A stretch of 48,980 nucleotides of DNA from an uncultured Bacteroidales bacterium. GTDB lineage: Bacteria > Bacteroidota > Bacteroidia > Bacteroidales > UBA932. The stretch lies in the NCBI GenBank assembly GCA_946055165.1, contig CAMGFA010000009.1, positions 1 through 48,980 on the forward strand, read 5' to 3'. Below the pieces are notes generated by a model, which saw nothing but the letters and a program-made list of their open reading frames with translations, did no database searches and had not been told where the DNA came from. Shown here one piece after another: positions 2,276-41,012 of this stretch (within the stretch, counting starts at the first letter, position 1; each line of letters opens with the position of its first letter). The position numbers and the translations under genes are program-made.

Positions 2276-3775
2276 TTACTTTTCGATAAGCTGGAAGAGG
2301 TCGAGGGCTGGATAGTATGTAATAGTACCAGCCGGATTTCTGTCTGTAGCCTCTACGCCTATATCCAGAACCGTATAATCACCAGTCGTGAACTCCTGTG
2401 TGATAGTACCTACTTCTGTCGTGGAATTGACTGTATTCCAAGAATCTACAGTATTGTCCTTATATTTGAATACTGTAGTAGTGTTGTACTCTCCAGTATC
2501 TTTTAATGAGCCCTTGGACTTGTTATATTTAAAGATATAAGTGGTATTAGCCTTTACCTTTATGCCCTTGATATAAAGACCAGAATTTGCAGTTGTAGCA
2601 GAAGTAGCAGGAAGTTTTACAGCTGCACCTTCAATCACTGTTCCGTAGTAATTCGGATTATTAATCTTATGAGTGTTAGTTCCAGCTGCAATCGAAGCAT
2701 TTCCAGTAATAGAATAAGAATAATTCTCTTTATCCGACTCGACAGCTGTCGTCAAACCAGCCTTTCCATAAGAAGGAACTTTTTCCTTAGCAACACTATT
2801 CTCCCCAAAAGTCTCTGTAAAGACTATATTAATCGGTTCATAAGGAAGAGTCGCAGTATTATATGTTCCGGCAGCGAACTTCGTCTCTTCAGAGAATGTC
2901 TTGGTAAGCGTGGCTGTACCTGCAGAACCAGTGACAGTAAGGTTGAGGGACTTGCCGGCAGGGATTGTAAACGGAGCCACTACAATATAGAGATCCACAC
3001 TTTCCCCATTTTCAATCGTCGTCTCGATAGGCTGATAATCAGGAACTTCAGCAGTTCCGTTATTCTGAACTACCGACAAGGCACAGGTATAAGACTTGCT
3101 GCTTCCCATCTGATTGGCATCCAGACTTGGATTCACTCCCTCTGCACCCCAATTCATAGTGAAAGAACCGGTAATATAGCTTCCCCCGGCAGAAGCATTA
3201 AGAGTAAGACCTGTAATGCTGGAAGCCTTACCGGAATTATTGACTACAGTAAATTTCAGCAATGTCCCCACATGATGAAGACCGACATTTGGCGCAGTAC
3301 CATCTGCGACAGCCAAAGCCTTTCCTGCAATAATATCATTCCCGGCCACATGATTATTGTTGTTATAACCGACCTGCATGGGAGCAAGTGCCACAGTATA
3401 GCCTTTGGTTCCGCCAGGATTGGAACCATACTGCATATAAGGGTAGCACACATACCAGTCATAAGAAGCACATTCCGTAACGAGAGCCTTGTCATCGGCA
3501 TCCTTGATAAATTTACCAGTCGCTGTCTCGCTGATAGTAAATCGACAATTATCTGAATAAGTACTGCTTCCAGCCTCAGCATTGAAGACTGTCAAGGCAT
3601 CTCCTTCCACCCAGGACACTTTGAAGTCACTTGACAGAATAGTTTTGGAAGAGCTCTCGTTAGCATACAGCACGACTTGACTTTCTTCCTTCTCCGAAAA
3701 ATTAGTCTCATTTTTCTGACATGACACTGCAGCAACTAAAGCTGCCATCATAATAATATTAAAAGTTCTTTTCAT
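2276..3775 (-). CDS. Fimbrillin-like surface lipoprotein of PUL 1
   Basis: A 499-residue lipoprotein, with the lipobox cysteine at residue 19 (AAVSC) followed by QKNET. The N-terminal two thirds look like the fimbrillin (Mfa/FimA-clan) fold of Bacteroidales: a beta-rich protein starting with a WVEGDALTVF segment and containing the alternating VALAPMQ and LHHVGTLLKF strands usual in that group. Roughly residues 320-499 form a second beta-sandwich-like module that could bind carbohydrate. It is the last gene of the PUL 1 operon, 21 bases after a 54-residue ORF. A role as an accessory surface glycan binder or adhesin is inferred; the family assignment is by eye. Confidence 0.6.
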   Translation of the reverse strand: MKRTFNIIMMAALVAAVSCQKNETNFSEKEESQVVLYANESSSKTILSSDFKVSWVEGDALTVFNAEAGSSTYSDNCRFTISETATGKFIKDADDKALVTECASYDWYVCYPYMQYGSNPGGTKGYTVALAPMQVGYNNNNHVAGNDIIAGKALAVADGTAPNVGLHHVGTLLKFTVVNNSGKASSITGLTLNASAGGSYITGSFTMNWGAEGVNPSLDANQMGSSKSYTCALSVVQNNGTAEVPDYQPIETTIENGESVDLYIVVAPFTIPAGKSLNLTVTGSAGTATLTKTFSEETKFAAGTYNTATLPYEPINIVFTETFGENSVAKEKVPSYGKAGLTTAVESDKENYSYSITGNASIAAGTNTHKINNPNYYGTVIEGAAVKLPATSATTANSGLYIKGIKVKANTTYIFKYNKSKGSLKDTGEYNTTTVFKYKDNTVDSWNTVNSTTEVGTITQEFTTGDYTVLDIGVEATDRNPAGTITYYPALDLFQLIEK

Positions 3776-3796: not shown

Positions 3797-3961
3797 TTAA
3801 AACCAACCGATGTTTCCTTCTTCCCAGTCATCAAGACTATCGTAAGTTTCCGGTTGATAAGATAAACATAGCACTGCTTGAGAATGCAGTATCAAAGATT
3901 GTATTTCAGGAGCCACATAGGTTTTCTTCTGAAATGGTTCAAATGATTGTTTCATTGGCAT
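3797..3961 (-). CDS. Small hypothetical protein, 54 residues, inside the PUL 1 operon
   Basis: ATG at 3961 (or the in-frame ATG at 3955) to TAA at 3797. The product starts MPMKQSFEPF, has the core YVAPEIQSLILHS, a Cys near residue 32, and an acidic Trp-rich tail (DDWEEGNIGWF). It is 17 bases after the GH3 stop and 21 bases before the lipoprotein start, so spacing and frame fit a real operon gene. No signal peptide or membrane segment. From memory, Bacteroidales carry many short proteins with a similar K-x-Y-x-x-P-x-I opening and an acidic aromatic tail next to lipoprotein genes, but their function is unknown to me. Confidence 0.6.
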   Translation of the reverse strand: MPMKQSFEPFQKKTYVAPEIQSLILHSQAVLCLSYQPETYDSLDDWEEGNIGWF

Positions 3962-3978
3962 AAGTATTTGTGTTTAAA

Positions 3979-6210
3979 TTAATAATTCAACTTAAAATAT
4001 GACACCAGACCTCCTTCGCTCGATGTGCCCACAGTCAGGACATAATTGCCCGGCTCAGTTCCCCAGCTTAGGTCTTTGCGGCAAAATGCCAGACTTTCAA
4101 CCGGAATCTCCAGTCTGACCGTTCTGCACTCCCCTGCTTCGAGGCTCACTCTTTCATAAGCTTTCAGTTCTTTCATCGGACGTGTTGTCGAGGCACTTTT
4201 TCGCCCTGTGTAAGCCTGAACAACTTCACAACCTTGCCTATCTCCTGTATTCTTCACATCAACATAGACTACTACAGAATCCGAAGCCCGAACTTCAGGA
4301 GTCTCCACCCTGAGATTGCTCAGCTCAAAAGTCGTATATGACAGTCCGAAACCGAAAGGCAGGAGTGGAGTTGGAGCCACATCCAGATAGGAAGATGTAT
4401 GCCCCATAACAGACTGAGGCATCTCTCTTGGAACATTGTCCAGATTGCCTTCCGTGCCCTTGGCTATATGACTGGTATGTTTATGATTATAATAAATCGG
4501 TATCTGTCCCTCATTTCGAGGGAAAGTTACCGGCAGTTTTCCCGAAGGATTAGCCTTTCCCCACAGGAGATTATATGCTGCCTGTCCTCCCATGGTTCCA
4601 GGATGCCACATATACAGAACAGCATCGGAAAGCTCCATTTCAGAAGCGATTACAAGAGGTCTTCCTGCCATAAACACCGTTACCAAAGGCTTCCCTGTAG
4701 AAGCCAAGGCTTCAAGCATTTCACTTTGCTGGCCCTGAAGATGAAGATCAGACAGGGAATGGGCTTCTCCAGACATCATCTGCTCCTCCCCGACGAAAGC
4801 AATCAGCACATCAGCTTTGCGGGCAGCCTTCTTCAGCGCCTTGAAATCGTCCGTACTCTTATCTCTCGGATAATCAAGAGAATTGACATAAATGAGCTTG
4901 ACGCCTGAAGGCAGATTCTTTCGGATAGCCTCGACAGGAGTAAGCGTATGTGCCTTATCCCCGTCAAGAGCCCAAGTTCCCATCTGGTCATAAGCCGCAT
5001 CAGCCATAGGACCAGTAACAAGAACAGTCTTAATATCTTCACCTAATGGCAGAATCCCGTCATTTTTAAGCAAAACAGAAGATTCCTCGGTAAGCCTGCA
5101 AGCTGTCTCCAAGACATTTTCTGAATAAATCACGCTTTCCGAAGTCTTTCTCGTATAAGGTTTTTCTAATAAACCAAGTCTCACCTTCAGCCTAAGCACG
5201 CGCCTTACTGCTTCATCAACAACATACATACTGACATCACCCTCCGCAATAAGTTCCTTAAGATTATTTAGATAGGAATACGACATCATATCCATATCAC
5301 ATCCGGCTTCCAAACAGATCTTTGCAGCCTCCTTCTTGTCCTTTGCCACGCCGTGAGGAATAAGGCCCCCGACTGAACCCCAGTCCGATACAACCATGCC
5401 TGTAAACCCCCACTCATCCCTGAGAACTTCAGTCAAAAGCCATCTGTTCCCAGTCGCAGGAACCCCATCGTTATCATTGAAAGATGACATAAAAGAGGCC
5501 ACTCCCGCTTCGACACAAGCCTTAAATGGAGGAAAATAAGTATCATACAAAGACCTTACAGGAACATAAGTGGTATTATAATCCCGGCCACCTTCAGCCG
5601 CACCATAGCCAGCAAAATGCTTGGCACAGGCAGCCATCGATAGTTCATCACTCAAAGAATCGCCCTGATATCCTTTCACTACAGAGACTGCCAATCTGGA
5701 TGCCAAATAAGGATCCTCCCCGAAACCTTCTGCAATCCTTCCCCACCTCGGGTCCCTCGCTATATCCATCATAGGAGCGAAAGCCCATTTTATACCGATT
5801 TCCGTTGCTTCCAGTGCAGTATTTCGAGCTGCACTGCAGATGAGAGCATCGTCAAAAGACGCCGCTTGGCCAAGCGGAATTGGCAGAATAGTTTTAAAAC
5901 CGTGAACGATATCCCTTGCGAAAAGTATTGGGATACCAGAAGGGCTCTCCTCTACTGCTATCCTCTGCAGAGAATCGATGACGGAGGCATCGACTATATT
6001 CATGATGGAAGATACTTGACCCTTCCGTATCATATCACACACTTTTGTGAGATCAGTCCTGCCGTCAATCTGGTGAAGCTGTCCGATTTTATCGTCCAGA
6101 CTCATCCTTGACATAATCTCTTCCACAATATTATCCACCTCTTGATGTGCAGCAGAAGGAATAAAGGCAAGACAAAAAGCCAACAAAAAAGTAATCAAAT
6201 ATTTTTTCAT
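3979..6210 (-). CDS. GH3 beta-glucosidase-like enzyme, periplasmic (PUL 1)
   Basis: A 743-residue glycoside hydrolase family 3 protein of BglX type that removes terminal sugars, usually beta-linked glucose or xylose. It has an N-terminal signal peptide ending near residue 21 without a lipobox cysteine, so it should be soluble in the periplasm. The GH3 barrel carries the KHF motif (K197-H198) and the nucleophile D276 in VVSDWGS. A GH3_C domain and a C-terminal fibronectin-III-like domain (from about residue 650) follow. I chose ATG 6210, since the TTG two codons upstream overlaps the previous gene. The start is two bases after the TGA of the FAD oxidoreductase, so the genes are co-translated. 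It is a clear paralogue of the GH3 at 28494-30698. Confidence 0.9.
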   Translation of the reverse strand: MKKYLITFLLAFCLAFIPSAAHQEVDNIVEEIMSRMSLDDKIGQLHQIDGRTDLTKVCDMIRKGQVSSIMNIVDASVIDSLQRIAVEESPSGIPILFARDIVHGFKTILPIPLGQAASFDDALICSAARNTALEATEIGIKWAFAPMMDIARDPRWGRIAEGFGEDPYLASRLAVSVVKGYQGDSLSDELSMAACAKHFAGYGAAEGGRDYNTTYVPVRSLYDTYFPPFKACVEAGVASFMSSFNDNDGVPATGNRWLLTEVLRDEWGFTGMVVSDWGSVGGLIPHGVAKDKKEAAKICLEAGCDMDMMSYSYLNNLKELIAEGDVSMYVVDEAVRRVLRLKVRLGLLEKPYTRKTSESVIYSENVLETACRLTEESSVLLKNDGILPLGEDIKTVLVTGPMADAAYDQMGTWALDGDKAHTLTPVEAIRKNLPSGVKLIYVNSLDYPRDKSTDDFKALKKAARKADVLIAFVGEEQMMSGEAHSLSDLHLQGQQSEMLEALASTGKPLVTVFMAGRPLVIASEMELSDAVLYMWHPGTMGGQAAYNLLWGKANPSGKLPVTFPRNEGQIPIYYNHKHTSHIAKGTEGNLDNVPREMPQSVMGHTSSYLDVAPTPLLPFGFGLSYTTFELSNLRVETPEVRASDSVVVYVDVKNTGDRQGCEVVQAYTGRKSASTTRPMKELKAYERVSLEAGECRTVRLEIPVESLAFCRKDLSWGTEPGNYVLTVGTSSEGGLVSYFKLNY

Positions 6211-6212
6211 AA

Positions 6213-8210
6213 TCAATGCTTTACAAATAGAACAGCATCGGCACGTGCCGCAGCGTCAGCTTCATCGGCGAGAATAGACACACAAACCTCATCATTCTTA
6301 CCGAAATGATACTCCCCTATAGGAACCCAAGTTGTCGTAGTCTGACCTGAAACATGCATCTCAGATCTCGGAATGCTGATTAGATAATTTTTGTTATTAA
6401 ACTTTACTCGAACATCGAGGGAAGAGGACAATTGGCCCTTGACTGGCTGGTAAGTATAGAGAGTATAAGTACCATCTGATGGAATGATAGTCTTATAATC
6501 AATCGTTCCTCCCGAAAAAGCATCCGCACGACAGTATGACAATCCATATCCTCCACGCCCCTCTACTCTGCTCCAAGCCCCGCTCATAGTCACATTCGCA
6601 TCATTATCGTCAATCAAGATATCCGCCTGGCTTCCGTCCATAAAGGGATTTTCATCCATAAGCACATTTATCTCCCGACTATCAACATCCTGAACATCAC
6701 AATTACCCCTGTGTATCGCCTGCACCACGGCTAGAGCAGATACTTGACCCAGCACCATGAATACGGGCTCCATTCGGATAGAGCCATATGCGATATGACT
6801 GGCGGAAAGACAGACAGGTACAAGAAGATTTGTACAATCCTGTCTCTTCGGAGTGAGGGAACGGTAAGAAATCGGATATGGCAGTCCTCCGCCCACCTCG
6901 ACATTACCCTCATTCTTAACCATAGGAACTCCGTCTTTAACGACCACAACCCTCTGACAATTATGTGAATCCATCTGATAAGCCGCCATAGCCACACCAT
7001 CAAAAGGACATACAAGTCCCTGACAGTCAGCCTGAGTAGCCACATACTCCCCTATCATCCTGCGCGACTCCCTGACATAAATCTGAGGAGTCCAGTGGCC
7101 ATTGGACACATACTCATCCTTTGGATATCCCCACTGCAGCATCTTCTTTCTCAATATCTCCGGGACTCTTTCGTCATGACCTATGAAGTAGAGCAGTCCC
7201 TTGGTATATGCTATATGGGCCGCCAAAATCGAGTCTCTCTGCTCATAACTAGCCTCTGGATACAAATGATTCATCCCAATCATATCGGAAGAGAAACCAC
7301 CTCGGTTATTGATATCTGTCTTACCGTTCGGCATCCTGCTCCAGATAAAATAATCATTCAGAGATTTCTTTTCCGGCTGGGCCTGCATCAGTCTGAGCAG
7401 AAGTTCGTACCTGGAAGGGTCATAATCTTCCGTCTCCTCGATAGGAATCATATTCTCGGGAACGTCTGTAAGACATATACGGTAGTTATAAGCCTGCACC
7501 AAACTGTCTTCAGAACCCGTCTCGGCAAGTTTCCTGTCGGAGATACCCCACAGAAGTCCGCTTGCAGGATTTCCTGGCTCAATAAAGGGATCGATGCCAT
7601 CAGGAAATTGGTGACCTGTCATCATCTCCACTCCATTCAAAGTCTCTCCATACCTTTCATTTCCTTCCCTGCCGACAAAATACTCCACATCACTATGGGC
7701 CATAAGATCCCCTTCATATGATGCATCTATAAAATACTTGGCACTTATGAAAGTATTTTTCTCCGGCTTATCGGAGCGCTCCACCCTTATCCGACGGATA
7801 CGGCTTTCATCTTTTTCGACCGATGCCAGCCTGTGCATACTCAATACAGTAAGACCGTCCACTTTCAAATATGAGCGCATTATACTGTCCGCTACCGAAG
7901 GTTCAAAGATGTATTGCTCAAGACAGCCATAGTGTTCCCCCACTTTGCGATAAAACTGCTTGGCCACCCCCTTGATAACCTGTTTGTTTCCTATATCCGT
8001 AAAACCCAGTCCGCCGGAAGTCATGCCCCCGAAATGCTCTGTAGGTTCCACCAGAACCACCTTCAAACCACTCTTTGCAGCAGAATATGCAGCTACGACA
8101 CCGGACGAAGTTCCTCCATAGACACACAGGTCATAATCCCGAGTTGCACATCCACTGACAAGCACGACACTAACTGCAGCTATGGCCAGCCTAATAAATA
8201 ATTGTCTCAT
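6213..8210 (-). CDS. Exported FAD-dependent oxidoreductase lipoprotein with golvesin-like C-terminus
   Basis: A 665-residue member of the FAD_oxidored family (PF12831 type). It has a lipobox cysteine at residue 21 (LVSGC), then the FAD-binding start DLCVYGGTSSG. Conserved blocks shared with the PUL 1 paralogue are DASYEGDLMA, RRMIGEYV and NLLVPVCLSASH. From about residue 530 there is a beta-rich module ending GEYHFGKND...ARADAVLF, which fits the golvesin C-terminal-like domain found on secreted carbohydrate-active proteins. As a lipoprotein it should act at the envelope, with FAD loaded after export or carried folded. An oxidation of sugars or glycosides is inferred from context; the substrate is not known. 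Its stop is two bases from the GH3 ATG, and AGGAG lies directly before its own ATG. Confidence 0.8.
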   Translation of the reverse strand: MRQLFIRLAIAAVSVVLVSGCATRDYDLCVYGGTSSGVVAAYSAAKSGLKVVLVEPTEHFGGMTSGGLGFTDIGNKQVIKGVAKQFYRKVGEHYGCLEQYIFEPSVADSIMRSYLKVDGLTVLSMHRLASVEKDESRIRRIRVERSDKPEKNTFISAKYFIDASYEGDLMAHSDVEYFVGREGNERYGETLNGVEMMTGHQFPDGIDPFIEPGNPASGLLWGISDRKLAETGSEDSLVQAYNYRICLTDVPENMIPIEETEDYDPSRYELLLRLMQAQPEKKSLNDYFIWSRMPNGKTDINNRGGFSSDMIGMNHLYPEASYEQRDSILAAHIAYTKGLLYFIGHDERVPEILRKKMLQWGYPKDEYVSNGHWTPQIYVRESRRMIGEYVATQADCQGLVCPFDGVAMAAYQMDSHNCQRVVVVKDGVPMVKNEGNVEVGGGLPYPISYRSLTPKRQDCTNLLVPVCLSASHIAYGSIRMEPVFMVLGQVSALAVVQAIHRGNCDVQDVDSREINVLMDENPFMDGSQADILIDDNDANVTMSGAWSRVEGRGGYGLSYCRADAFSGGTIDYKTIIPSDGTYTLYTYQPVKGQLSSSLDVRVKFNNKNYLISIPRSEMHVSGQTTTTWVPIGEYHFGKNDEVCVSILADEADAAARADAVLFVKH

Positions 8211-8216
8211 CTCCTT

Positions 8217-9494
8217 TTACTCTCCCTTCAATGTGATATTGTCAAATCTAAGATGTGCAGAACCGGAATCTTCAGTAAATCTGATTTGTATGCTCTCTGT
8301 TCCAGACTGCACAGTGAAATCAGACCTGACATTGTCCGTGGTGCTGCTCTTACATATCTCTGTCCAAGATTCTCCATCGAGAGAATACTCAACTTTAACT
8401 GAACCACCACACTGATCAAATGCAAGCGTAAGGTCAGTGCAACCATGCAATTTGATTCCTGCTATGTTAAGCCAACCGTTTCCCGCCCTGCGTGCCCAGG
8501 CATAGGTGCCTGATATCAGCTTCATCGAAGAATATGCATATTTGGAAAGACAGATCTGAGTCCCGTCTGAAGTGTAATTAATGAAAGTCTTATCTCCATC
8601 ATATACTGTGAGACCCTCTTTTATTCCTTCTGTAACTTCCGCATTGTCACCATTATAAGAAGAAATGTTAGCAGGCGTAAACTGAGTTGCAGTATTCCCG
8701 CTGATACCGCCTTCAGTGGTGTCGAAAGCAATTGTTCCGGAAATACTTATCTGAGTATCGAAGATTTCAGAATACAGTGCCTTAGGTTCTCCTTTCCTGA
8801 CATGAAGTTTATAATCTGCCGTTCCGAAATTACCCTTGACATCGCTGACTTCAAATACGAAGGCAATATCCTTTCCTCCGTCTTCCGAGGTAGTGGTATA
8901 GACAAAATGATAAGCATCCTCTTTGTTGGAAGCAAATCCCTCTGTCTTGGTAAGGGATGCCAATTCCACCCCGTTTTTAAATGTCCTTATCTTCGCGATG
9001 CTGTATCCGGTAGACACCTTAACATCGAACTCCACACTTTCACCCATAATTACTTCGGAAGGCAGTTCTTCCGGTAGAGAAAGGGTTACGGTCTCGGAAA
9101 TCGAACGGACATACACGGGATAATCAATGCTATGCTTATAGCCGTCCACGCCCTCTGCCGTAAAGACAAAATCTATGGACTGGCCTATTTGCTCTGCACT
9201 GAATATATAACCGAAAGAATATAGCACCTCTTCTGTGGTACCCTCATATGTCTTTTCCGAACCATCGACGATTACTCCGTCAATAGATGTGTACACAGAC
9301 TTCAGTCCTTCACTATAACTGACATTAAGATTATAATGTACATTATCTTCCGGATAGGCAAGCACAGGAGCTTCTCCTATCAAAGTCATGCTTAGACTTC
9401 CGTGATCTTCTTTCACATCAACAATATTCTTTTCCTCACAACCAATCAAGGCAAGTGAGAAAAGAGTCACCATTATTATCGTAATTTTTTTCAT
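8217..9494 (-). CDS. SusE-like surface glycan-binding lipoprotein (PUL 1)
   Basis: A 425-residue lipoprotein, cysteine at residue 19 (LALIGC). Two Ig-like/SusE-like beta modules at roughly residues 28-132 and 133-230 are each bounded by a Y-x-V-x-V-R type strand (YPVYVRS, YKLHVRK). The remaining ~190 residues form a jelly-roll-like module ending SAHLRFDNITLKG, similar to the discoidin or choice-of-anchor folds that bind sugars. Position after SusCD and the GH2-like enzyme, and before the second oxidoreductase, is that of a surface glycan-binding protein. Stop and next start are six bases apart. Ligand unknown. Confidence 0.65.
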   Translation of the reverse strand: MKKITIIMVTLFSLALIGCEEKNIVDVKEDHGSLSMTLIGEAPVLAYPEDNVHYNLNVSYSEGLKSVYTSIDGVIVDGSEKTYEGTTEEVLYSFGYIFSAEQIGQSIDFVFTAEGVDGYKHSIDYPVYVRSISETVTLSLPEELPSEVIMGESVEFDVKVSTGYSIAKIRTFKNGVELASLTKTEGFASNKEDAYHFVYTTTSEDGGKDIAFVFEVSDVKGNFGTADYKLHVRKGEPKALYSEIFDTQISISGTIAFDTTEGGISGNTATQFTPANISSYNGDNAEVTEGIKEGLTVYDGDKTFINYTSDGTQICLSKYAYSSMKLISGTYAWARRAGNGWLNIAGIKLHGCTDLTLAFDQCGGSVKVEYSLDGESWTEICKSSTTDNVRSDFTVQSGTESIQIRFTEDSGSAHLRFDNITLKGE

Positions 9495-9505
9495 CGCCCA
9501 AAAAC

Positions 9506-10837
9506 CTATTTAACACAGAATGGAATTACTGAAAGAGCAGCCTTCCTGTTTGTATCCCTGACGAATACAAGAAGACGATAGTTGCCGGCTGCCTTAGGAG
9601 CCGTAAAAGCGATAGTCTGCAAAGTTTCATTCTCTATCAGACCGCTTATGCCTTCTGGCAGGCTCCCGTCGGTGTCTGCACTTCCCTCCTGATATATCAT
9701 CCACTTATATGAAAGTGAGGAGCCCCAAGGGGACGAAGCACTGACAGATGCCGTATTCTCGCTGGATGGACTGACCACTATGCTGTCATCGGCAATCTTC
9801 CCATTCATAACCATAGCAGTACGATCAGCAATTACAGGTGCCAGCTTCTCCGGATACTTTCCTGTCCAGTAATGTTGAATCTCATCAACAGCTCCGAATG
9901 TATTTCCGGATTTATCGAAAAGGCCATACCAGGTCAACACTTCTCCATGATTCTGATACCCCCAGACAAAAGGGAAAGAACCCAAGCAGCCATTATCCAG
10001 ATTAGGAATAACCGCTTTCTCATATATCTCCTTATATTTCTCAGCTTTCTGTGTACTTGTTTCCTCAATCAAGCTGCCAAATGAAGTCTTGGGTACACTT
10101 GTAGTCCAAGTTCCCAGCTGTCCGAACTCGGTAAGCATCCAGGGTTTGGTCCAGCCGGCCGATTCAAGATTGGCCTGAATATTCATAGGATTTGGATAAT
10201 ATGAGTTGATGCATAGAAAATCCAGTTCCGGAGCCATCTCGATTATCAGCTTTACATTTGCCACATTTGAACTGGCAAGCGTAGTGGTTACAGGATGATT
10301 TGGATCTTCCTCATGAATCATCTTGGCGATATCGTTGATAGCCGTCCAAAGTTTAGTATTCTTATACATCGATTCAGCCTCATTTCCTATACTCCAGCAC
10401 ATGACCGCCGGATGATTTCTGAAGCGTCGGACCAAACTACGGCAATTCTCAAGCTGAGCGGCGACCTTCTCTTCATTGTCATAATCAAATCCATCCCTCT
10501 CCCTTGAGATATAAAGACCCATGTGAACGTATAGGTTGTTCTTGTATGCCTCACTGAGAATGCTCGGAGTAGTCTCTTCCGAAGTCGAATAAGTTCTTAT
10601 GCAGTTACCGCCCAATTCGGCAACTCTCTTATAATTACGGTTGGTCGCTGCACCCTTGGCAAGCCATTCCTCACCGTTCTTGTACAGCCTCCAAACACCG
10701 CTTTCGTTATTAATGCAAAATACCGTTGCCTCATTGACATCTGAGCCCTGCGGTATTATCGTCTCCCTCTCCTTACTGCAAGAAACGAGAGCAAGTCCCA
10801 TCAGCATCAGGGGAAAAATTACTTTTGAGTATCTCAT
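9506..10837 (-). CDS. GH2-like TIM-barrel glycoside hydrolase lipoprotein (PUL 1)
   Basis: A 443-residue lipoprotein (cysteine 20 in LALVSC) with a TIM barrel of GH2/clan A type. The acid/base glutamate is E153 in CWSIGNEAE and the nucleophile is E237 in MLTEFGQ, so both catalytic residues are present. It lacks the N-terminal jelly roll and Ig domains of full-length GH2 enzymes; after the barrel only ~95 residues of beta-rich sequence follow (from about residue 345). So it is a minimal GH2-like enzyme and could instead belong to another clan A family. Its ATG overlaps the TGA of the upstream oxidoreductase by four bases. Substrate unknown, probably a beta-linked glycan. Confidence 0.75.
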   Translation of the reverse strand: MRYSKVIFPLMLMGLALVSCSKERETIIPQGSDVNEATVFCINNESGVWRLYKNGEEWLAKGAATNRNYKRVAELGGNCIRTYSTSEETTPSILSEAYKNNLYVHMGLYISRERDGFDYDNEEKVAAQLENCRSLVRRFRNHPAVMCWSIGNEAESMYKNTKLWTAINDIAKMIHEEDPNHPVTTTLASSNVANVKLIIEMAPELDFLCINSYYPNPMNIQANLESAGWTKPWMLTEFGQLGTWTTSVPKTSFGSLIEETSTQKAEKYKEIYEKAVIPNLDNGCLGSFPFVWGYQNHGEVLTWYGLFDKSGNTFGAVDEIQHYWTGKYPEKLAPVIADRTAMVMNGKIADDSIVVSPSSENTASVSASSPWGSSLSYKWMIYQEGSADTDGSLPEGISGLIENETLQTIAFTAPKAAGNYRLLVFVRDTNRKAALSVIPFCVK

Positions 10838-12456
10838 TTTATTTTAGTGTTAACATTATATTCAAGTATCTGACCATCAGCTCTTAATCGAGCCACAAGA
10901 CTATCTCTGTCTATTTTTTGGACAGAGCATTTGGACTTGGCGGCCATAGCAGCAGCCGTACCACAAGACTGGCCAAGCACCATATACACAGGCTCCATCC
11001 GTATGGAGGAATAAGCCACGTGAGATGCAGACAGGCACACAGGCACCAGCAGGTTAGAGCATTCTTCCGCCCTCGGTACCAGTGCAGCATAATCAATCTG
11101 ATAAGGCTTGGTCGGGACAAAGATTCCACCTTCTATCATAATGCTGTCCCCTTGAGCTACATATGAGACAAAATGACAATCCATCGGATAGGAGCCCATA
11201 CCGACAGGATGGGTAATCTCCTCATTTCTTTTTCCTTCGATATTATGTTGAGTCATAACATACTCCCCAAGCATTCTTCTGGCTTCCCTGATGTAAAGCT
11301 GATGTGGGAAAGAGCCATTGTCCATAAATTCATCCTTTGGCCATCCCCATCTTGCCATCTCCTGCCTCATAGTCTCGGGCACCCTTTCATCGTGACCGAG
11401 AAACCATAACATCCCTTCGGCATAAAGACGGTGCTCATCGGCGATTTCTTTTCTGGTCTGATAATCCCCTTCCGGATAATCAAAGCTGCCGCCTATATAA
11501 TCCAGATGGTTGGTATCTGTCTTTCTATTCGGCATAGGAGTGAAAGTAATCACATCCTTCAGTTCGGATTTCCCATCGGATTCAATCCTGCGAAGTACCA
11601 TCTCAAACATCGCAGGGTCATATTCTTCAGGCTTTCGAAGCGGAATCATATTATCAGGATCATCAGTCAAAGTCACTCGGTAACAATAAGCTTGTGTGCG
11701 CTTATCCCCTTCCCCAATTTCTCCATAAAGAGTTGGAGCCAACCTTGGAATAAGCTGTCCATTTTCAAGAAATGCTGAGCCTTTTATCATTCCATGATTA
11801 CGTATTCCGGCCAATGTTTCCCCATACGTAGAGACAGCCTCCCTTCCAGTCACATAACTGACTCCTGCCTGCGCCATCAAATCACCCTCATATGAAGCAT
11901 CAACAAAGACCTTTGCACGGATTCGGATACCATTTAGAGTACAAATAGACTTGATTTTGCCTTTTTTTAGCTCGACCCCGTCCACAAGTTCAATAGGTGA
12001 ATTATAAAGAATTTCTACTCCGGCTTCTTCCAGCATGTCTTTCATAATTCTCTCCCCTACCCCTGACTCATATACCCACTGCATTCTGCGAGAATCATTC
12101 TTGCCCGAAAAAGTCCGTTTTTTAGTTGACTCCATAAACTGCTCGCGGCTTTGATTATGCCATGACTCTTCAGCCAGGTAATATGAGTATATCCTCTTAT
12201 AGAACTCTTCTGCGATTCCGCCGACTACACTATGCTTATTGATGTCTGTAGCAGTAAGTCCTGATGTAGCCAAACCTCCTACGTGGCCATCCTGACAGAC
12301 CAGCAGGACTCTTGCACCCATTCTGGCAGCTTCAATAGACGCACAAACTCCTGACGCAGAGCCACCATAAACGCACACGTCATAAGTCTTGAAGACAGGA
12401 GCAGAAATCTGCAACACGGCCCAAAGGCTCATTAATAAAAAAACTACTCTACGCAT
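10834..12456 (-). CDS. Exported FAD-dependent oxidoreductase (PUL 1, second copy)
   Basis: A 540-residue FAD_oxidored family protein, paralogous to 6213-8210. It has a signal-peptide-like N-terminus but no lipobox cysteine, so it is probably periplasmic. The FAD motif is DVCVYGGSASG; further shared blocks are DASYEGDLMA, RRMLGEYVMTQ and LLVPVCLSASH. It ends after the FAD domain and lacks the golvesin-like C-terminal module of its paralogue. It starts one base after the SusD stop and overlaps the GH2-like gene, so it is the first enzyme gene of the operon. The reaction is unknown; oxidation of a sugar or an aglycone in the periplasm is the likeliest reading. Confidence 0.8.
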   Translation of the reverse strand: MRRVVFLLMSLWAVLQISAPVFKTYDVCVYGGSASGVCASIEAARMGARVLLVCQDGHVGGLATSGLTATDINKHSVVGGIAEEFYKRIYSYYLAEESWHNQSREQFMESTKKRTFSGKNDSRRMQWVYESGVGERIMKDMLEEAGVEILYNSPIELVDGVELKKGKIKSICTLNGIRIRAKVFVDASYEGDLMAQAGVSYVTGREAVSTYGETLAGIRNHGMIKGSAFLENGQLIPRLAPTLYGEIGEGDKRTQAYCYRVTLTDDPDNMIPLRKPEEYDPAMFEMVLRRIESDGKSELKDVITFTPMPNRKTDTNHLDYIGGSFDYPEGDYQTRKEIADEHRLYAEGMLWFLGHDERVPETMRQEMARWGWPKDEFMDNGSFPHQLYIREARRMLGEYVMTQHNIEGKRNEEITHPVGMGSYPMDCHFVSYVAQGDSIMIEGGIFVPTKPYQIDYAALVPRAEECSNLLVPVCLSASHVAYSSIRMEPVYMVLGQSCGTAAAMAAKSKCSVQKIDRDSLVARLRADGQILEYNVNTKIK

Positions 12457-12457
12457 A

Positions 12458-14062
12458 CTAATATCCTACATTTTGAGGGAAGTTTTCTGCTCCCATATTA
12501 ATAATCTCAGACTCCGGAATAGGCCAACGGATGAAATGCGGATTGGCAGGAAGATTGGTTCTCCCCTTCATGGAAGCCTGATAGATAGGGTTTCCTGCAT
12601 ATTTGGTCACTTGATCAATAAGGATTCCAAGCCTCTTGAGGAAGAACCATCTGTCATTTTCGAAAGACAACTCTCTGGCCTCCTCATCGATGATATCCTG
12701 CATCGTCAAAGAAGCAGTAAACTCTGCATTGCCGGCCCTCTGCCAAGTCTTATTATAATAATATTTGGCCTTGGTCTGATCTCCCAACCTGAGCGCGGCC
12801 TCAGCACCTACAATATAAGCATCGGAGAGCCTGTACAGAATAAAATCCTTGTAACCTCTTTTCTCTGAAGGAGTCTTTGTATATATGTCACCCCATTTTG
12901 TACAACCAGGCATAGTATAGCGGGGATCCCCGCTTCCTGAAGTATAGGCAGGCAGATACTCCCCAGGAGCAACCTGCTTACCGCTATACTGCACAGATAC
13001 CTTTCTGGTGTTACGGTATTTGTGAATATACCAGTCGTTATACCTTGTATCTTTCGCTTCATCGTACAAAGAAAGAAGATATGGATTGGGAAGAATTCTT
13101 CCGAAGGTATAACCCCAGTTCTCTGCAGAACAGGACTCCTCTTCAGTACCTCCGAGAGCCGTTCTGTACTGGGCTATGAACAAAGTGCACATCTGATTCC
13201 CTTTTGGGGTGGTGACAGAGAAGTTTCCTCCAGGATTTTCGCTCCATTGCTGGACCATGATTGCTTCCGCATGATTGAGATCGGCATTTTGGAACACCTC
13301 AGCGGTGGAAGCCAAAAGATGGAAAGCATTCGATTGGTCGATAAGATCAATCTGCTGAAGAGCAGTTTCCCAATCTTTCTTCCAAAGGGCGACCTTAGCC
13401 AAAATCAGTCTTGCCGCTCCCTGATTGAATCTGCCAGCCTCATACGAAGTCCATGGGAGATTCTCAGCAGCATAATTCAAATCCGAATACAGGAGTTCAT
13501 AAACCTCTGCAGCTGTAGCAGCACGGTAATCCCTCTCATCATTCACATTCTCTGATGTGACCGGTACGGTATTGAGCCAAATTCTGTCAAATATCCTGAA
13601 AAGATGGAAGTAAGACTGGGCCCTGAAGCCGTGAGCCTGTGCAAGTGTCCTTTTGAGTTCCTCGCTCTGCTCCATCTGCTCACCATACCAGATAATTTCG
13701 TTACAACGGCTTATTATCTGATAATTTATCTTCCACATATACAGCACCTGAGCTGCGGAAGGCTTCAAATAATTCGGATCATAGATTCCGAAAAAATTAC
13801 CCGTTCCCCCACATGTTGCCACGATATCGGTTCCCCTCTCCAGCGCCCACCAGGTAGGACTCTCATTGCCACTGTTATCGGCTAACAATGTCCTGTGCAG
13901 TGAATAAACAGCATTCATTGCAAGCTCAAGACCTGATGGAGTGGAATAAATATAATCCACAGAGTACTGGGTCTCGTTATTTTCCTCGAGAAACTTGGCA
14001 CAAGAAGATAGACAAAGCACCAAGGTACAAACAAATCCAGCAGATATAATTTTCTTATCCAT
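12458..14062 (-). CDS. susD: SusD/RagB-family outer-membrane glycan-binding lipoprotein (PUL 1)
   Basis: A 534-residue SusD homologue that caps the SusC transporter and binds the glycan at the surface. Lipobox cysteine 21 (LCLSSC). The N-terminal TPR-like helices (YIYSTPSGLELAMNAVY, then AHGFRAQSYFHLFRIF) and the C-terminal RagB/SusD block (DEEARELSFENDRWFFLKR) are typical. Its ATG follows the SusC stop by 12 bases, the usual SusC-SusD pairing. Specificity cannot be read from sequence. Confidence 0.95.
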   Translation of the reverse strand: MDKKIISAGFVCTLVLCLSSCAKFLEENNETQYSVDYIYSTPSGLELAMNAVYSLHRTLLADNSGNESPTWWALERGTDIVATCGGTGNFFGIYDPNYLKPSAAQVLYMWKINYQIISRCNEIIWYGEQMEQSEELKRTLAQAHGFRAQSYFHLFRIFDRIWLNTVPVTSENVNDERDYRAATAAEVYELLYSDLNYAAENLPWTSYEAGRFNQGAARLILAKVALWKKDWETALQQIDLIDQSNAFHLLASTAEVFQNADLNHAEAIMVQQWSENPGGNFSVTTPKGNQMCTLFIAQYRTALGGTEEESCSAENWGYTFGRILPNPYLLSLYDEAKDTRYNDWYIHKYRNTRKVSVQYSGKQVAPGEYLPAYTSGSGDPRYTMPGCTKWGDIYTKTPSEKRGYKDFILYRLSDAYIVGAEAALRLGDQTKAKYYYNKTWQRAGNAEFTASLTMQDIIDEEARELSFENDRWFFLKRLGILIDQVTKYAGNPIYQASMKGRTNLPANPHFIRWPIPESEIINMGAENFPQNVGY

Positions 14063-14074
14063 TTCAATAATAGT

Positions 14075-17000
14075 TTAGAATGATACATTTACACCTATAA
14101 GTGCCGTTCTTGGCTCCGGATATGCTCCGGTATTCCCTTCCGGCCCATAGCCAAGCACTTCCGTTTTAGTCCACACATTGGTAAAAGTGGCATAGAGACG
14201 CAATCTCTGAATGGACAAAGCTTTAATCATGTTCTTAGGAAAGGTGTATCCGATCTGGATATTCCTCAACCTGAAATACGTCGCATCCTGATAACCCAGA
14301 GAATTAATGTACGCAGGAGCTTGTGTCATATTAGGAGCAGGAGCCTCATTGGATGGATTATTGACCGTCCAGTAGTTTCTCCTGATACCGTTTCGTTTGC
14401 CTGTCATATCTCCACCGGTATTGAAAGATGTCAGATACTCATTGTAAATGTATCCTCCGACAGAAGCATACAGTTCTAAGGACAAGTCTATTCCACTGTA
14501 TTCAAAAGTGGAGACGATAGTGCCTATCCAATCAGGATCTCTATTGAAAATCACCCTGTCATCCGCATTGATTGTATTATCCAAATTGACATCCTTTACT
14601 TTGATATCGCCAGGATTGGCATCAGGCATATAAGAATTTGATATTTCATCCCCGATTTGCCAGATACCATCAAATGCATAATCATAGTACACATTCATTG
14701 GCTGACCGATAAACCATTTGTTATTCACATCATTCAAAGGCTTGCCGTTTTCATCCACCCTGTCATCGATTCTGATAATCTTATTCACATTCTTTGAATA
14801 AGTGAAGTTCAGCATCCATTCAAAATCTCCTATTGAAAGAGGAACAGTATTGAGTGTCAATTCCACGCCTTTGTTTTGAACCGCGCCCAGATTCACCAAT
14901 TGATTGACATAACCTGTAGAGTTACTCAAAGACTTATATATGAGCAAGTCATCAGTATCTGTCTGGTATAATTCGAGAGAGCCGCTTATCCGGCCGTTGA
15001 AAAAACCAAAATCCAAACCTGCATTCATAGAAGTGGATGTCTCCCATTTCAATTCCGGATTTGACAAAGTCGTGTCAGGCAGATATCCGATGGCTGTCTT
15101 ATCAAACTCAGTAAGGTATTTTTCCGTTAGACCAAGAGTAGTGTATGGGGAGACTCCCTGGTTACCGACCTGGCCCCAGCTTAAACGCAGTTTCAGATTG
15201 GAAAGCCAATCCACATTATTCAAGAAATTCTCTTTATTGATTCTCCATGCAAAAGAAACTGATGGAAAACAGCCAAACTTATGATTTTTGCCGAATACTG
15301 AAGAGCCATCAACCCTGACAGCAGCAGTAAAAAGATACCTGTCGTCATAGTTATACCTCGCACGGGCGAGGAAAGATAACATCTTTCTATTTGAAAGCCC
15401 ATATGAAGGAACGCCATAATTCAGTGCAGAACCTATAGCCTTATAAGACAGGTCGTCATTTGCGAAATCAGTTCCATTGATGCTAATCGACTTGTAATCG
15501 ATAACATTAAGACTCTGCATTAGGGTAGCATCAAAATGATGGACAGACTTGAAGTCTTGTTTATAATTAAGAATATTCTCAAGCAGATAATCATTGTTTG
15601 TACTCCTGCTTACAGTAGCTTTACCGAGATAGCCGGCAGACAAGCATGACGTATGATTTCGTCCAAGATAAGTATCGCTTTCGACAGCTCTACTGGTCAT
15701 GCTCGTATTTAACTTGTAAGTCAATCCGTCAACTATCTTCCAATCCAGAAATACATTATATAATTGTCTGACTATATTGGTTCTATATTCAGAATTATTT
15801 ATATTCCATAAAGGGTTATAATGAGATTCTCCCGCTTCAGTAACATCTTTTCTCAATGTCTGAGCATCATCTTCATAGACCTTTGCCAAAGGTGGCATGG
15901 AAATAAAAGTATTAAAAGTGCCGTCCGCTGTCTGTTTCCAGGACTGGACATAATTAAGATTGGCACCTATACTCAAGTTTTTACTGAGCTTATGATCTAT
16001 ATTTATACGTGCTGAGACTTTGTCGAAACCAGAATTAATGACCATTCCATCCTGTTGAAAAAGGCCCAGCCCGATGACGAACTTGGTGCTTTCATTTCCG
16101 CTTTGAACCAGAATATCGTGCTTCTGCTGAAGAGCTTTATGTATCATCAGTTCTTCCCAGTTGACGAATTCCCCGCTCTTCAGCACTTCGCCCATAATCC
16201 CAGGAAAACAACTTGCCTCATCATAGGTACCAAATGCCTGAATATAAGCCTCCTTGCGATAAGCAGCCCATTCTTCCCCGTTATAGAATTCACAATTTCG
16301 ATCTATCCCCTGAACGGACATATAGCCATCATAGGAGACTTTAACTTTTCCCTCTATTCCCCTCTTGGTCGTAATCAGAATAACTCCATTTGCCGCTCTG
16401 GCACCATAGATTGATTGAGAGGAAGCATCTTTGAGAATCTCCATAGACTCGATATCGAAAGCATTGATATCATCAATCCCACTCATAGGCACCCCATCCA
16501 CGATATACAAAGGAGAATTGTCGGCCGAAAGAGAGCGTCGCCCACGAATAAGAACAGATGAACTGCCTCCAGGCTCTGCACTGTTCATTTTTACCTGAAC
16601 ACCGGCAGCTGTACCCCTTAGCATCTCGCCTACACTTACCGTAGGCATCTTGTTAAGCTCTTCCGCCTTAATGGATGTGATTGCCCCTGTGATATCGCTT
16701 TTTTTCTGGGATCCGTAGCCCACGAAGACCAATTCATCCAACATTTGAAAGTCTTCCTTCAAGATGAAGGTCTGACTATTACCCCCCCCCAATTTCGCAC
16801 TAACGATGAGATCCGTAAATCCCATACAGGTCAGTTTAAACTTCTCCCCTTCCTTTGCGGAGACAGAGAAGTATCCGTCCGTATCGGCAATGGCATAAGC
16901 TCCACCTGCCAAGGAAATAATAGCTGCACCACATACTGCCTCTCCGCTCGAATCTATTACACGTCCCACAAAGGATGGCGTTTGCGTTCGAGTACCTTTC

Positions 17001-17320
17001 GAAGTATTTGTATTATTGGCCTTGGATAATAAAATGGTATTATCCTCTATCGAATAAGTGAGTCCCAGGGGCTGGAACAGTTGCTTAAGCACCTTTGGAA
17101 GTGGTTCTTCAGAGACAGATAGCGAGACCTTAATCGAAGGATCCATCACTTCTTCGCTATAGAAGAACGATAGTCCGCACTGCCCCTCAATTTCCCTAAG
17201 GACTAAAGAAATTGGCCTTGATTCCAAATTCACCGTTATCCGCACATCTCCCTGGGCAAAGGCAGAAAAACAGTGAGTGCATATAACCATGCAGAGCATG
17301 GCAACAAAGGTTTTCTTCAT
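14075..17320 (-). CDS. susC: SusC/RagA-family TonB-dependent transporter with STN domain (PUL 1)
   Basis: A 1081-residue outer-membrane importer. In order: signal peptide (to about residue 23), STN signalling domain (24-100), carboxypeptidase-regulatory-like domain (116-195), TonB-box region FVGYGSQKK, plug with the PLYIVDGVP motif, and a beta-barrel ending in GVNVSF. The STN domain is used by transporters that signal through a FecR/ECF pair, and that pair lies just upstream. Nine consecutive G (coding strand; 16782-16790) encode Gly178-Gly180 between the carboxypeptidase-like domain and the plug. A one-base slip there would stop translation early. The frame is intact here. Confidence 0.95.
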   Translation of the reverse strand: MKKTFVAMLCMVICTHCFSAFAQGDVRITVNLESRPISLVLREIEGQCGLSFFYSEEVMDPSIKVSLSVSEEPLPKVLKQLFQPLGLTYSIEDNTILLSKANNTNTSKGTRTQTPSFVGRVIDSSGEAVCGAAIISLAGGAYAIADTDGYFSVSAKEGEKFKLTCMGFTDLIVSAKLGGGNSQTFILKEDFQMLDELVFVGYGSQKKSDITGAITSIKAEELNKMPTVSVGEMLRGTAAGVQVKMNSAEPGGSSSVLIRGRRSLSADNSPLYIVDGVPMSGIDDINAFDIESMEILKDASSQSIYGARAANGVILITTKRGIEGKVKVSYDGYMSVQGIDRNCEFYNGEEWAAYRKEAYIQAFGTYDEASCFPGIMGEVLKSGEFVNWEELMIHKALQQKHDILVQSGNESTKFVIGLGLFQQDGMVINSGFDKVSARINIDHKLSKNLSIGANLNYVQSWKQTADGTFNTFISMPPLAKVYEDDAQTLRKDVTEAGESHYNPLWNINNSEYRTNIVRQLYNVFLDWKIVDGLTYKLNTSMTSRAVESDTYLGRNHTSCLSAGYLGKATVSRSTNNDYLLENILNYKQDFKSVHHFDATLMQSLNVIDYKSISINGTDFANDDLSYKAIGSALNYGVPSYGLSNRKMLSFLARARYNYDDRYLFTAAVRVDGSSVFGKNHKFGCFPSVSFAWRINKENFLNNVDWLSNLKLRLSWGQVGNQGVSPYTTLGLTEKYLTEFDKTAIGYLPDTTLSNPELKWETSTSMNAGLDFGFFNGRISGSLELYQTDTDDLLIYKSLSNSTGYVNQLVNLGAVQNKGVELTLNTVPLSIGDFEWMLNFTYSKNVNKIIRIDDRVDENGKPLNDVNNKWFIGQPMNVYYDYAFDGIWQIGDEISNSYMPDANPGDIKVKDVNLDNTINADDRVIFNRDPDWIGTIVSTFEYSGIDLSLELYASVGGYIYNEYLTSFNTGGDMTGKRNGIRRNYWTVNNPSNEAPAPNMTQAPAYINSLGYQDATYFRLRNIQIGYTFPKNMIKALSIQRLRLYATFTNVWTKTEVLGYGPEGNTGAYPEPRTALIGVNVSF
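16782..16790 (-). repeat. Nine-G homopolymer tract inside susC of PUL 1
   Basis: Plus strand reads nine C; on the coding strand it covers the last base of a TTG codon, two GGG codons and two bases of GGT. Such tracts are prone to slipped-strand mispairing. Whether length varies among cells is not visible here. Confidence 0.8.
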
Positions 17321-17366: not shown

Positions 17367-18377
17367 CTAAATATATACTTCTATAATCTCCGGCCCTGTA
17401 ATATTTCCATTATCCCTGCTTATCCTTTTAAACTTGAGACTTGAAGTACGGCTAAAGAAATCGAGCATTACATCAAGTCGCTGATCGGATAACTGCCCTG
17501 TAAATTTCTGCCCGTAAACATGAGTATCCTTTATAACAAAACGGACATTGTATCTATTCTCAATCTGGCGCAGGGCATCCTCTATCGGAGTCCTGTTCAT
17601 TATTATCTTTCCATATCGCCAAGCTGTCATCGTATTCGGGTCAAGTGTCTGGACAGATATGCTTTTTTCGACAGGATCAATGGATACGCATTGACCAGGA
17701 TAGATCTTCATGACCTCTTCCCTTGAATTATCATTCAGATAATGCATATTGATAGCTCCGTTTACAAGAGTAGTCCGGATAGAACGGCCATCTTCCCCAT
17801 AAGCATCGACATTAAATTCTGTTCCCACTACTTCGATCGTCATTGCTGAAGTCTTTACATGAAAACTGTGATCAGGGTCTTTTGTGACCTTAAAGTACCC
17901 TTCACCCAGTAGTTCCACATCTCTGGTATTTGAAAAACTTGAGGGATATCTTAGAACTGAACCGGAATTAAGCCATACTGTAGAACTATCCGGCAAAACC
18001 ACAGTCGAAGTCATTCCTGCAGTTGTTCGGACTTCAATCATCTGAACGGGATCAGTTTTTATGCTGTTTTTGACAAGAATAGCGGAAACAATCAAGAGTG
18101 GAAGCAGCAAGACTGCTGCAATTCTCTGATAAATTTTGGAATAATGCTTTCTTATGGCTGCATTTCTGCGCTTATACACTTTGGAAAGTGCTATCTCAGT
18201 AGAACCATCTCGGGAAAACTTCATCGCCTGCTCGGATGACCAGTATAAATAAGCCTCACGAGCAAGTTCCCTATGGCTTTCATCTTCAGCAATCCAGTGA
18301 CTTATATTCTCCGCGTCGGAGTCTGAAAGTATTCCTTCAAAATAGCCTAAAAGCGAATTAAAAATATCTTGATCCAT
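17367..18377 (-). CDS. FecR-family anti-sigma factor
   Basis: A 336-residue inner-membrane anti-sigma factor. The cytosolic N-terminus (1-85) holds the sigma; one membrane segment spans about 84-103 (IAAVLLLPLLIVSAIL). The FecR domain follows at roughly 115-215 (LPDSSTVWLNSGS, then GEGYFKV and GTEFNVDAY), and a C-terminal DUF4974 domain at about 258-330 that would contact the SusC STN domain. It is divergent from the ECF sigma gene and 46 bases upstream of susC in the same direction, so the three form a trans-envelope induction circuit for PUL 1. Confidence 0.93.
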   Translation of the reverse strand: MDQDIFNSLLGYFEGILSDSDAENISHWIAEDESHRELAREAYLYWSSEQAMKFSRDGSTEIALSKVYKRRNAAIRKHYSKIYQRIAAVLLLPLLIVSAILVKNSIKTDPVQMIEVRTTAGMTSTVVLPDSSTVWLNSGSVLRYPSSFSNTRDVELLGEGYFKVTKDPDHSFHVKTSAMTIEVVGTEFNVDAYGEDGRSIRTTLVNGAINMHYLNDNSREEVMKIYPGQCVSIDPVEKSISVQTLDPNTMTAWRYGKIIMNRTPIEDALRQIENRYNVRFVIKDTHVYGQKFTGQLSDQRLDVMLDFFSRTSSLKFKRISRDNGNITGPEIIEVYI

Positions 18378-18467: not shown

Positions 18468-18475
18468 TAAGTTTG
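18468..18475 (+). promoter_or_regulatory. -7 element of the ECF sigma gene
   Basis: TAAGTTTG matches TAnnTTTG, 12 bases before the ATG at 18488. I find no good TTTG at the proper distance upstream, so the promoter is weak by housekeeping standards or relies on another factor. Confidence 0.45.
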
Positions 18476-18487
18476 CATAGAATAATT

Positions 18488-26813: not shown

Positions 26814-26909
26814 ATGGCAGCAGAAATCAAATTATGGCTTGAGAGCAATCCCGAAATCGAGAATCTCATCAAGGAGCTTGAGCTCGATATAATTTCTACA
26901 ACTTGTTGA
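26814..26909 (+). CDS. Short ORF, 31 residues, possibly a truncated gene start
   Basis: ATG 26814 to TGA 26909. The product begins MAAEIKLWLESNPEIENL and is helical and acidic, with a natural-looking coding start behind a good -7 element. It then runs 14 bases into the 3' end of the convergent CotH gene and stops. Either it is a genuine micro-protein or the first part of a gene cut off when the PUL 2 DNA was joined here. No family recognised. Confidence 0.35.
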   Translation: MAAEIKLWLESNPEIENLIKELELDIISTTC

Positions 26910-28491: not shown

Positions 28492-28493
28492 GA

Positions 28494-30698: not shown

Positions 30699-30701
30699 AC
30701 A

Positions 30702-34360: not shown

Positions 34361-34381
34361 ATAATCCAGTTTTACAATTTA

Positions 34382-35896: not shown

Positions 35897-35908
35897 ACTT
35901 TCAATTCT

Positions 35909-39150: not shown

Positions 39151-39278
39151 TTTACTGGGTTTTAATGTTAATAAAAAAATATTGGTTGGTTGTTAAAAAA
39201 ATTTAAAATTTAATAATTTTACAAACTCAAGCTACAGTCCGTAAAAAAGAAGTGGACAAGTTGGAGGCACATCCAAAG

Positions 39279-39313: not shown

Positions 39314-39338
39314 TATACTTGAAAAAAGTGGACGCTTT

Positions 39339-40952: not shown

Positions 40953-40958
40953 ACCGCA

Positions 40959-40989: not shown

Positions 40990-41012
40990 AGATTTTTCAA
41001 AAATTCACGTCT

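Follow-up and report, generated by a model that had tools for sequence, protein, structure and literature searches.

The 3-keto-glycoside pathway, an oxidative form of glycoside breakdown, was reportedly described by Nasseri et al. in 2024 (Nature 631:199). The available part of PMC9007349 represents such breakdown by the 3-ketotrehalose hydrolase BT2157 and by a lactose 3-dehydrogenase, and that of PMC10628242 presents flavin-dependent oxidation at C3 followed by beta-elimination as an established route for glucosides. A further described system, close in gene content to the one treated here, is the beta(1,3)-glucan locus BACUNI_01484-01490 with its GH158, GH16_3, and GH3 enzymes (available part of PMC7157763). 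Here, we describe a polysaccharide utilization locus (PUL) in a 48,980-nucleotide stretch of DNA, termed the window, from an uncultured Bacteroidales bacterium (contig CAMGFA010000009.1). This locus encodes, together with SusC, SusD, GH158, and GH3 proteins, two predicted flavoenzymes of family PF12831, FADa and FADb (FAD, flavin adenine dinucleotide). The recurrence of the gene set, its co-divergence, and the fusion of FADb-like domains to glycosidases make a glycan-related role of these flavoenzymes likely, as judged from sequence comparison. An earlier reading of the window, the original prediction, had assumed that known PULs rest on hydrolases and lyases, which is too narrow, since oxidative glycoside routes already exist in the available text of PMC9007349 and PMC10628242.

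The locus is a packed operon on the minus strand (positions 3979 to 17320). It encodes, in this order, a SusC-type TonB-dependent outer membrane transporter (14075..17320; 1,081 amino acids [aa]; 795 bits to TIGR04056, cut-off of 368; Pfam plug and barrel domains), a SusD-type surface lipoprotein (12458..14062; 534 aa; PF07980 and PF14322), the predicted exported flavoenzyme FADa (10834..12456; 540 aa), a lipoprotein glycosidase of family GH158 (9506..10837; 443 aa), a SusE-like surface lipoprotein with a probable glycan-binding function (8217..9494; 425 aa), the predicted flavoenzyme lipoprotein FADb (6213..8210; 665 aa), and a beta-glucosidase-type GH3 enzyme (3979..6216; 745 aa; PF00933 and PF01915; 673 bits to the NCBIfam model BglX, cut-off of 666). 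The genes are separated by 1 to 12 bases and overlap by 4 bases at two junctions. Adjoining SusC and SusD homologues thus share one packed operon with carbohydrate-active enzymes (GH158 and GH3), the arrangement by which a PUL is recognized. All seven genes of the packed operon in the original prediction were found, on the same strand and in the same order; the start given there, 3797, is off, since the GH3 gene already ends at 3979. The GH3 start codon is TTG, with an in-frame ATG two codons further. By pattern match, lipoboxes are present in SusD, GH158, the SusE-like protein (CEEKN), and FADb, and the N termini of FADa, which is signal-like, and of GH3 are hydrophobic without a lipid attachment site. 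The fifth protein matched no SusE model and gave only an F5/8C match below the cut-off in the Pfam search. Its SusE-like label, taken over from the original prediction, is therefore upheld by position and lipobox and not by the SusE models.

The operon resembles BACUNI_01484-01490 in its SusC, SusD, additional surface glycan-binding protein, GH158, and GH3, and in the conserved catalytic residues of GH158. It differs from that locus in the flavoenzymes, as the main text of PMC7157763, in its available part, names none and lacks the word oxidoreductase, and in the phylogenetic position of GH158, since the BACUNI enzyme falls outside the clade described below. It also lacks a GH16 gene and is accompanied by a FecR-type anti-sigma regulator upstream of SusC (17367..18377, minus strand; PF04773 and PF16344) and a divergent extracytoplasmic function (ECF) sigma factor (18473..19027, plus strand; Sigma70_r4_2 and r2), whereas the available text on the BACUNI locus describes a hybrid two-component system.

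FADa and FADb score 347.3 and 347.1 bits, respectively, with the PF12831 profile, whose curated cut-off is 27 bits, which bears out the two FAD oxidoreductases of the original prediction; the golvesin module that it had placed on FADb is Golvesin_C (PF25275), for which FADb passes the cut-off. The two proteins are paralogues with 42% identity, and each clade has invariant residues of its own. Neither matched GMC_oxred_N or GMC_oxred_C in the Pfam search, and both are predicted to bind flavin. Golvesin_C shares its fold with the C-terminal domain of the PL8 xanthan lyase 6f2p, and the match is confined to residues 527 to 665 of FADb. Some database entries with PF12831 and PF25275 (P0106 and P0337) are named "xanthan lyase"; like them, FADa and FADb are above the PF12831 cut-off and FADb above that of Golvesin_C. 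This name may be owed to the C-terminal domain in common with 6f2p, and nothing points to a lyase. A lipobox pattern is found among FADb relatives in 85 of 120 listed proteins and 9 of 23 open reading frames (ORFs) from the loci, and among FADa relatives in 26 of 118 and 1 of 36, respectively. The membrane anchor on FADb rather than FADa thus appears to be a tendency and not a rule, and FADb is missing from 5 of the 28 assessable loci, which weakens the proposal that one soluble and one membrane-attached enzyme act in sequence. A third, distant PF12831 protein is encoded in the same genome (L101:1535-3478, contig C4); it adjoins a CE2-type esterase, and a six-hairpin glycosidase-like protein lies nearby.

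Among 84,980 species genomes, two peptide patterns from the FADa alignment, which give a lower bound, picked out at least 35 related loci, and in 30 of 35 GH158 follows FADa directly. The other five are two loci at contig ends (L011 and L038) and three from Opitutae (L036, L037, and L043). In these Opitutae, the neighborhood of the FADa-like gene is a different one, with a PEP_hydrolase-like protein and with a large protein, which in L036 has the Pfam architecture ThuA-DUF7133-cytochrome c and in L037 and L043 was assigned by BLAST cluster. SusC is present in 28 of the 35 loci, as is a relative of the SusE-like protein, and a FecR relative is present in 25. The usual order, SusC-SusD-FADa-GH158-SusE-(GH3)-FADb, is found in Bacteroidales, in Sphingobacteriaceae, and in one locus from Flavobacteriaceae (L031). 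The SusE-like gene mostly follows GH158 and precedes FADa in L032 and L034; L023 has an extra GH158 before FADa, and some loci have a sulfatase or a second GH158 before FADb. The hosts include Bacteroides (B. acidifaciens and B. congonensis among them), Tidjanibacter, Alistipes, Proteiniphilum, Pedobacter, Parapedobacter, Sphingobacterium, Chitinophaga, Flavobacteriaceae, and Marinoscillum. Recurrence in other genomes had been set beforehand as a check, and the gene set was found in distant Bacteroidota (Bacteroidales, Sphingobacteriaceae, and beyond); the association within the operon is therefore more than chance. Two accessory genes vary among the loci. A CstA-type transporter gene occurs in 14 of them (L022 to L027, L029 to L034, L040, and L041), none from Bacteroidales and 2 confirmed by Pfam, and sulfatase-family proteins, a hint at sulfated substrates, lie in or beside L017, L018, and L020 (Pfam) and L025 and L029 (BLAST cluster).

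The genes of the set also diverge together. Pairwise distances correlate with r values of 0.90 for FADa-FADb (22 loci), 0.93 for FADa-SusE (26 loci), 0.79 for FADa-GH158 (29 loci), and 0.95 for SusC-SusD. All 21 gene pairs have a permutation p of 0.001, the lowest r being 0.41 for SusD-FecR; correlation of every pair indicates inheritance as a unit and not interaction. The SusC and SusD proteins of L018, L028, L032, and L034 belong to another lineage (approximately 450 to 505 bits for SusC and 64 to 82 for SusD), which indicates that the transporters joined to the FADa-GH158 module have not always been the same. The gene set is rare and patchy. In genome searches that scored a restricted set of first-look candidates in each genome, whose absences are therefore not absolute, GH158 was found in 18 of 198 genomes of the order and 46 of 395 of the phylum, each time with FADa beside it only in the present genome; in the family, 4 of 299 genomes have GH158, with the full set in the present genome and in G372, which is apparently the source of L015. 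Six further genomes of the phylum encode GH158 and a PF12831 relative (1e-60) on different contigs or more than 400 kb apart. GH158 thus usually occurs without the flavoenzymes, and FADa of the present kind occurs mostly with GH158.

The hydrolase beside FADa had been described as a minimal GH2-like enzyme. This assignment is ruled out, as the best solved relatives are the entries 9oro (residues 26 to 440; E value of 6.9e-70) and 6pal (BuGH158; residues 47 to 442; 2.1e-44) of the Protein Data Bank (PDB), with GH2 enzymes far behind. The catalytic residues N152 and E153, the Asn-Glu pair of the acid/base, and the nucleophile E237 are invariant in 29 of 29 sequences from FAD loci and in 14 of 14 others; this residue comparison leaves out L040_1709 and L078 and sets aside eight second-copy GH158s. 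In a tree of 53 sequences, one branch (100/99) holds 38 FAD-locus GH158s among its 39 rows, the odd one being L078, a non-FAD sequence on a long branch. The other side holds BuGH158, 9oro, and 12 of 13 non-FAD GH158s. The tree is rooted at the midpoint, and long branches meet in it (PDB 9oro, L063, L078, and L023 among them), so that the edges of the clade are unsure. The GH158 of L012 was too short for the tree; its gene consists of two overlapping ORFs (L012:11646-13020), possibly because of a frameshift in the assembly. A loop also distinguishes the FAD-locus enzymes, which have H297, G298, and V300 in 29 of 29 sequences; at these positions, the other enzymes have Q (in 86%), E, and T (both in 100%), respectively. 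These features suggest that the substrate of the FAD-locus GH158 is an altered one to which the enzyme has adapted. In view of the separate clade and the changed loop, a plain beta-1,3-glucan substrate should not be assumed, and the description of the protein as a plain endo-beta-1,3-glucanase was not adopted.

Outside this gene set, FADb-like domains occur in a wide range of long proteins. At a threshold of 1e-40, 2,080 such proteins were found, and the best 120 of these were characterized by their precomputed Pfam domains. Among these 120, the domain is fused to GH28 in six proteins, GH3 in three (one being the query from L039), GH20 in two, and GH97 in one, to sialidase-type domains in nine, to GMC oxidoreductases in seven, and to a PF01261 TIM barrel in one; SGNH-type esterase and PA14 domains are fused to it likewise. 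Profile searches confirmed fusions with PF01261 (P0272), GMC (P0304), GH20 (P0341), GH97 (P0252), GH28 (P0256), GH3 (P0340), and Exo_endo_phos (P0246), as well as a tandem FAD protein (P0242), to which P0004 and P0083 can be added. In L039, FADb and GH3 form a single frame of 1,383 aa whose GH3 half is 51% identical to the GH3 of the window. The GMC fusions (P0299, P0300, P0302, P0304, P0305, P0306, and P0309) combine the FADb-like domain with Golvesin_C, P0304 being the representative of 469 member sequences, and P0272 combines both domains with the xylose-isomerase-like barrel of PF01261. A different PUL from the same genus (L081:570-17992) encodes a FAD-Golvesin_C-GH28 protein, a second FAD protein, GH97, an esterase, and GH92 according to Pfam; L082 has similar genes. 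The fusions are the best evidence that proteins of the PF12831 family may act on the glycan or next to it.

We tentatively propose, as a possibility somewhat short of an even chance, that the two PF12831 proteins, which carry export signals, act on a beta-glucan-type oligosaccharide and oxidize one of its ring hydroxyls, which would enable the neighboring glycosidases to finish cutting it. The order put forward in the original prediction, oxidation followed by cleavage, is a hypothesis. The lipoprotein GH158 would cut the glycan at the cell surface, and SusC and SusD would bring the fragments into the periplasm, where FADa and FADb would oxidize a hydroxyl group, with FADb perhaps held to the glycan by Golvesin_C; purely by analogy, the site would most likely be C3. 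The weakened bond would be lost through beta-elimination or hydrolysis, GH3 would trim the remainder, and the electrons would pass to the quinone pool and fumarate reductase. The packed operon, its recurrence, the GH158 catalytic residues, the paralogy of the two flavoenzyme-family proteins, and the fusions of FADb-like domains to glycosidases are seen in the sequences; the kind of substrate, the site of oxidation, the presence of flavin, and the acceptor of the electrons are inferences. A flavoprotein and an iron-sulfur subunit of fumarate reductase/succinate dehydrogenase are encoded elsewhere in the genome and could take the electrons; such enzymes are common, and their presence proves little.

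This scheme has in common with the 3-keto-glycoside pathway (BT2157, and LacABC with DUF1080) that a glycoside is oxidized during glycan or disaccharide breakdown, which the available part of PMC9007349 also places in Bacteroidota and, for lactose, in the periplasm. That pathway employs other enzyme families, whereas the partners here are classical glycosidases with SusC and SusD, and assignment of the locus to it was rejected because its partner enzymes are missing from the locus. The proposed reaction, C3 oxidation by a flavoenzyme followed by bond cleavage, is that of GlycDH with AtOGE or PuCGE in the available part of PMC10628242; unlike that system, the operon contains no eliminase recognized by Pfam. 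AtOGE is annotated there as a sugar phosphate isomerase/epimerase, and P0272 carries the xylose-isomerase-like barrel of PF01261. A FAD-dependent oxidoreductase is mentioned once, in passing, in each of the available parts of PMC6987092 and PMC11345257, and no report of the present gene set was found in the openly licensed literature of PubMed Central. Oxidative breakdown is thus known; that literature was not found to describe PF12831 either as a conserved part of PULs or as fused to glycosidases.

Several observations weigh against the proposed oxidation by both flavoenzymes, beginning with the proteins themselves. Dinucleotide-binding flavoproteins usually bind the ribose of FAD through an acidic residue that ends strand 2. 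This residue is missing from the FADa relatives, which have S in 39, A in 6, and C in 2 of 48 sequences; the FADb relatives have E in 25, D in 1, and S in 3 of 29. The structural matches listed cover mainly the dinucleotide-binding part and not the large insertion, and because this part dominates the alignments, the lack of other families among them is not evidence. The AlphaFold2 model of FADa has poor stretches (mean predicted local distance difference test score of 76.6), and its fold matches serve for the fold class only. The pathway has gaps as well. The Pfam scan recognized no eliminase and no cytochrome in the operon, and the 96%-complete genome has no match at an E value of 0.001 to the 3-keto-glycoside hydrolase family PF06439; a GH16 at 30702 to 31805 overlaps this family with only 20.6 bits, below the cut-off of 26.8. 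GFO/IDH/MocA has a single match in the genome, on another contig, and none among the operon proteins. As for the substrate, beta-1,3-glucan is not simply transferable from BuGH158 across the clade split, and the sulfatases of some loci hint at other substrates.

The distribution of FADb adds to these difficulties. FADb is present in 23 of the 30 loci with FADa and GH158, or in 23 of 28 assessable ones, since contig ends truncate L009 and L042, and it was not found within the fetched flanks of L018, L022, L028, L029, and L030; the idea of a fixed FADa-FADb couple is weakened by these five. One of them, L022 from Sphingobacterium alkalisoli, shows a natural deletion when set against L026 from S. 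olei. DNA identity between these two PULs is 98% in the 13.5 kb that precede FADb; most of FADb itself is missing from L022, where the gap lies between two short repeats of ATGCA and a stub of the gene remains (L022:16600-16800, compared with the intact L026:16600-18740). FADa, GH158, and CstA are retained. Unless the assembly is in error, FADb is dispensable or was recently lost in L022, which argues against an obligate two-step couple.

A doubtful alternative is that the two proteins are a redox-neutral pair in which one flavoenzyme oxidizes the sugar, the bond is eliminated or hydrolyzed, and the second reduces the keto sugar, with no outside acceptor. The paralogy of FADa and FADb with their clade-specific invariant residues, the tandem FAD-FAD proteins P0004, P0083, and P0242, and the absence from the operon of any electron acceptor recognized by Pfam are in line with such a pair. 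So are the fusions of FADb-like domains to GMC oxidoreductases, a class that includes glucoside 3-dehydrogenases. However, FADa stands without FADb in the 5 of 28 loci named above, FADb-like genes occur without FADa beside SusC and SusD in L086 and L090, and we know of no precedent for two flavins that exchange electrons through a sugar product. In L090, from a genome of the same genus, three FADb-like genes follow SusC and SusD in a row (L090:7355-12654).

It is similarly unlikely that the flavoenzymes act on an aglycone, phenolic or other, or on a rare modified residue that GH158 and GH3 only release. PF12831 proteins accompany many glycosidase families, as would be expected of enzymes for something common to many glycosides, and esterase and SGNH-hydrolase genes or domains lie beside them or are fused to them. 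Against this, the loop peculiar to the GH158 clade may point to a modification of the sugar close to the scissile bond, and Golvesin_C resembles a polysaccharide lyase domain. Improbable, too, is a reductive repair in which keto or aldehyde groups, left on glycans by lytic oxygenases or reactive oxygen, are reduced for GH3. Fumarate-reductase-type flavoproteins are found among the structural matches of the flavoenzymes, and several host genera are (gut) anaerobes, in which reduction is easier than oxidation, but Pfam recognized no electron donor in the operon, and the GMC oxidoreductase fusions fit oxidation better. Very improbable is a mere hitchhiking of the PF12831 proteins, whose function would then have nothing to do with the glycan. 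In its favor, no reported activity of the family was found in the openly licensed literature; against it speak the GH158 gene that comes right after FADa in 30 of 35 loci, the co-divergence, and the profile-confirmed fusions to four glycosidase families.

The surroundings of the operon bear on the substrate of the proposed glycan oxidation. A second PUL-like region (26896-42497), which starts approximately 9.6 kb from the operon, encodes CotH, GH3, GH16 with BACON domains, a DUF5121/5125 protein, SusD, and a SusC split into two adjacent ORFs (plug at 38290-39150 and barrel at 35909-38209). Beyond it, on the plus strand, lies a GH30 that comes near the model of the BT3312 endo-beta-1,6-glucanase (637 bits, cut-off of 700). 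Given GH158 and the BglX-type GH3 in the operon and GH16, GH3, and GH30 nearby, a beta-glucan-type substrate is plausible for this neighborhood. On the other side, downstream of GH3, a lipoprotein gene (2276..3775, minus strand) without a match in the Pfam search has relatives 3' of GH3 in L010, L012, L013, and L014. This protein has a lipobox and probably belongs to the unit as an accessory part.

Beyond this locus, exported PF12831 proteins may be an unrecognized class of glycan-oxidizing, auxiliary-activity-type enzymes that work with glycosidases in Bacteroidota PULs, in some cases within one polypeptide (GH3, GH28, GH97, GH20, and sialidase-type), a suggestion that we consider possible, if not the likelier outcome. 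If it is true, a periplasmic oxidation step would operate in organisms several of which are known as gut anaerobes, which raises the question of where the electrons go. The fusions would then be ready-made single-protein systems for finding the chemistry of PF12831, and Bacteroidota would rely on a large flavoenzyme family, besides glycosidases and lyases, as part of their standard equipment for degrading glycans.

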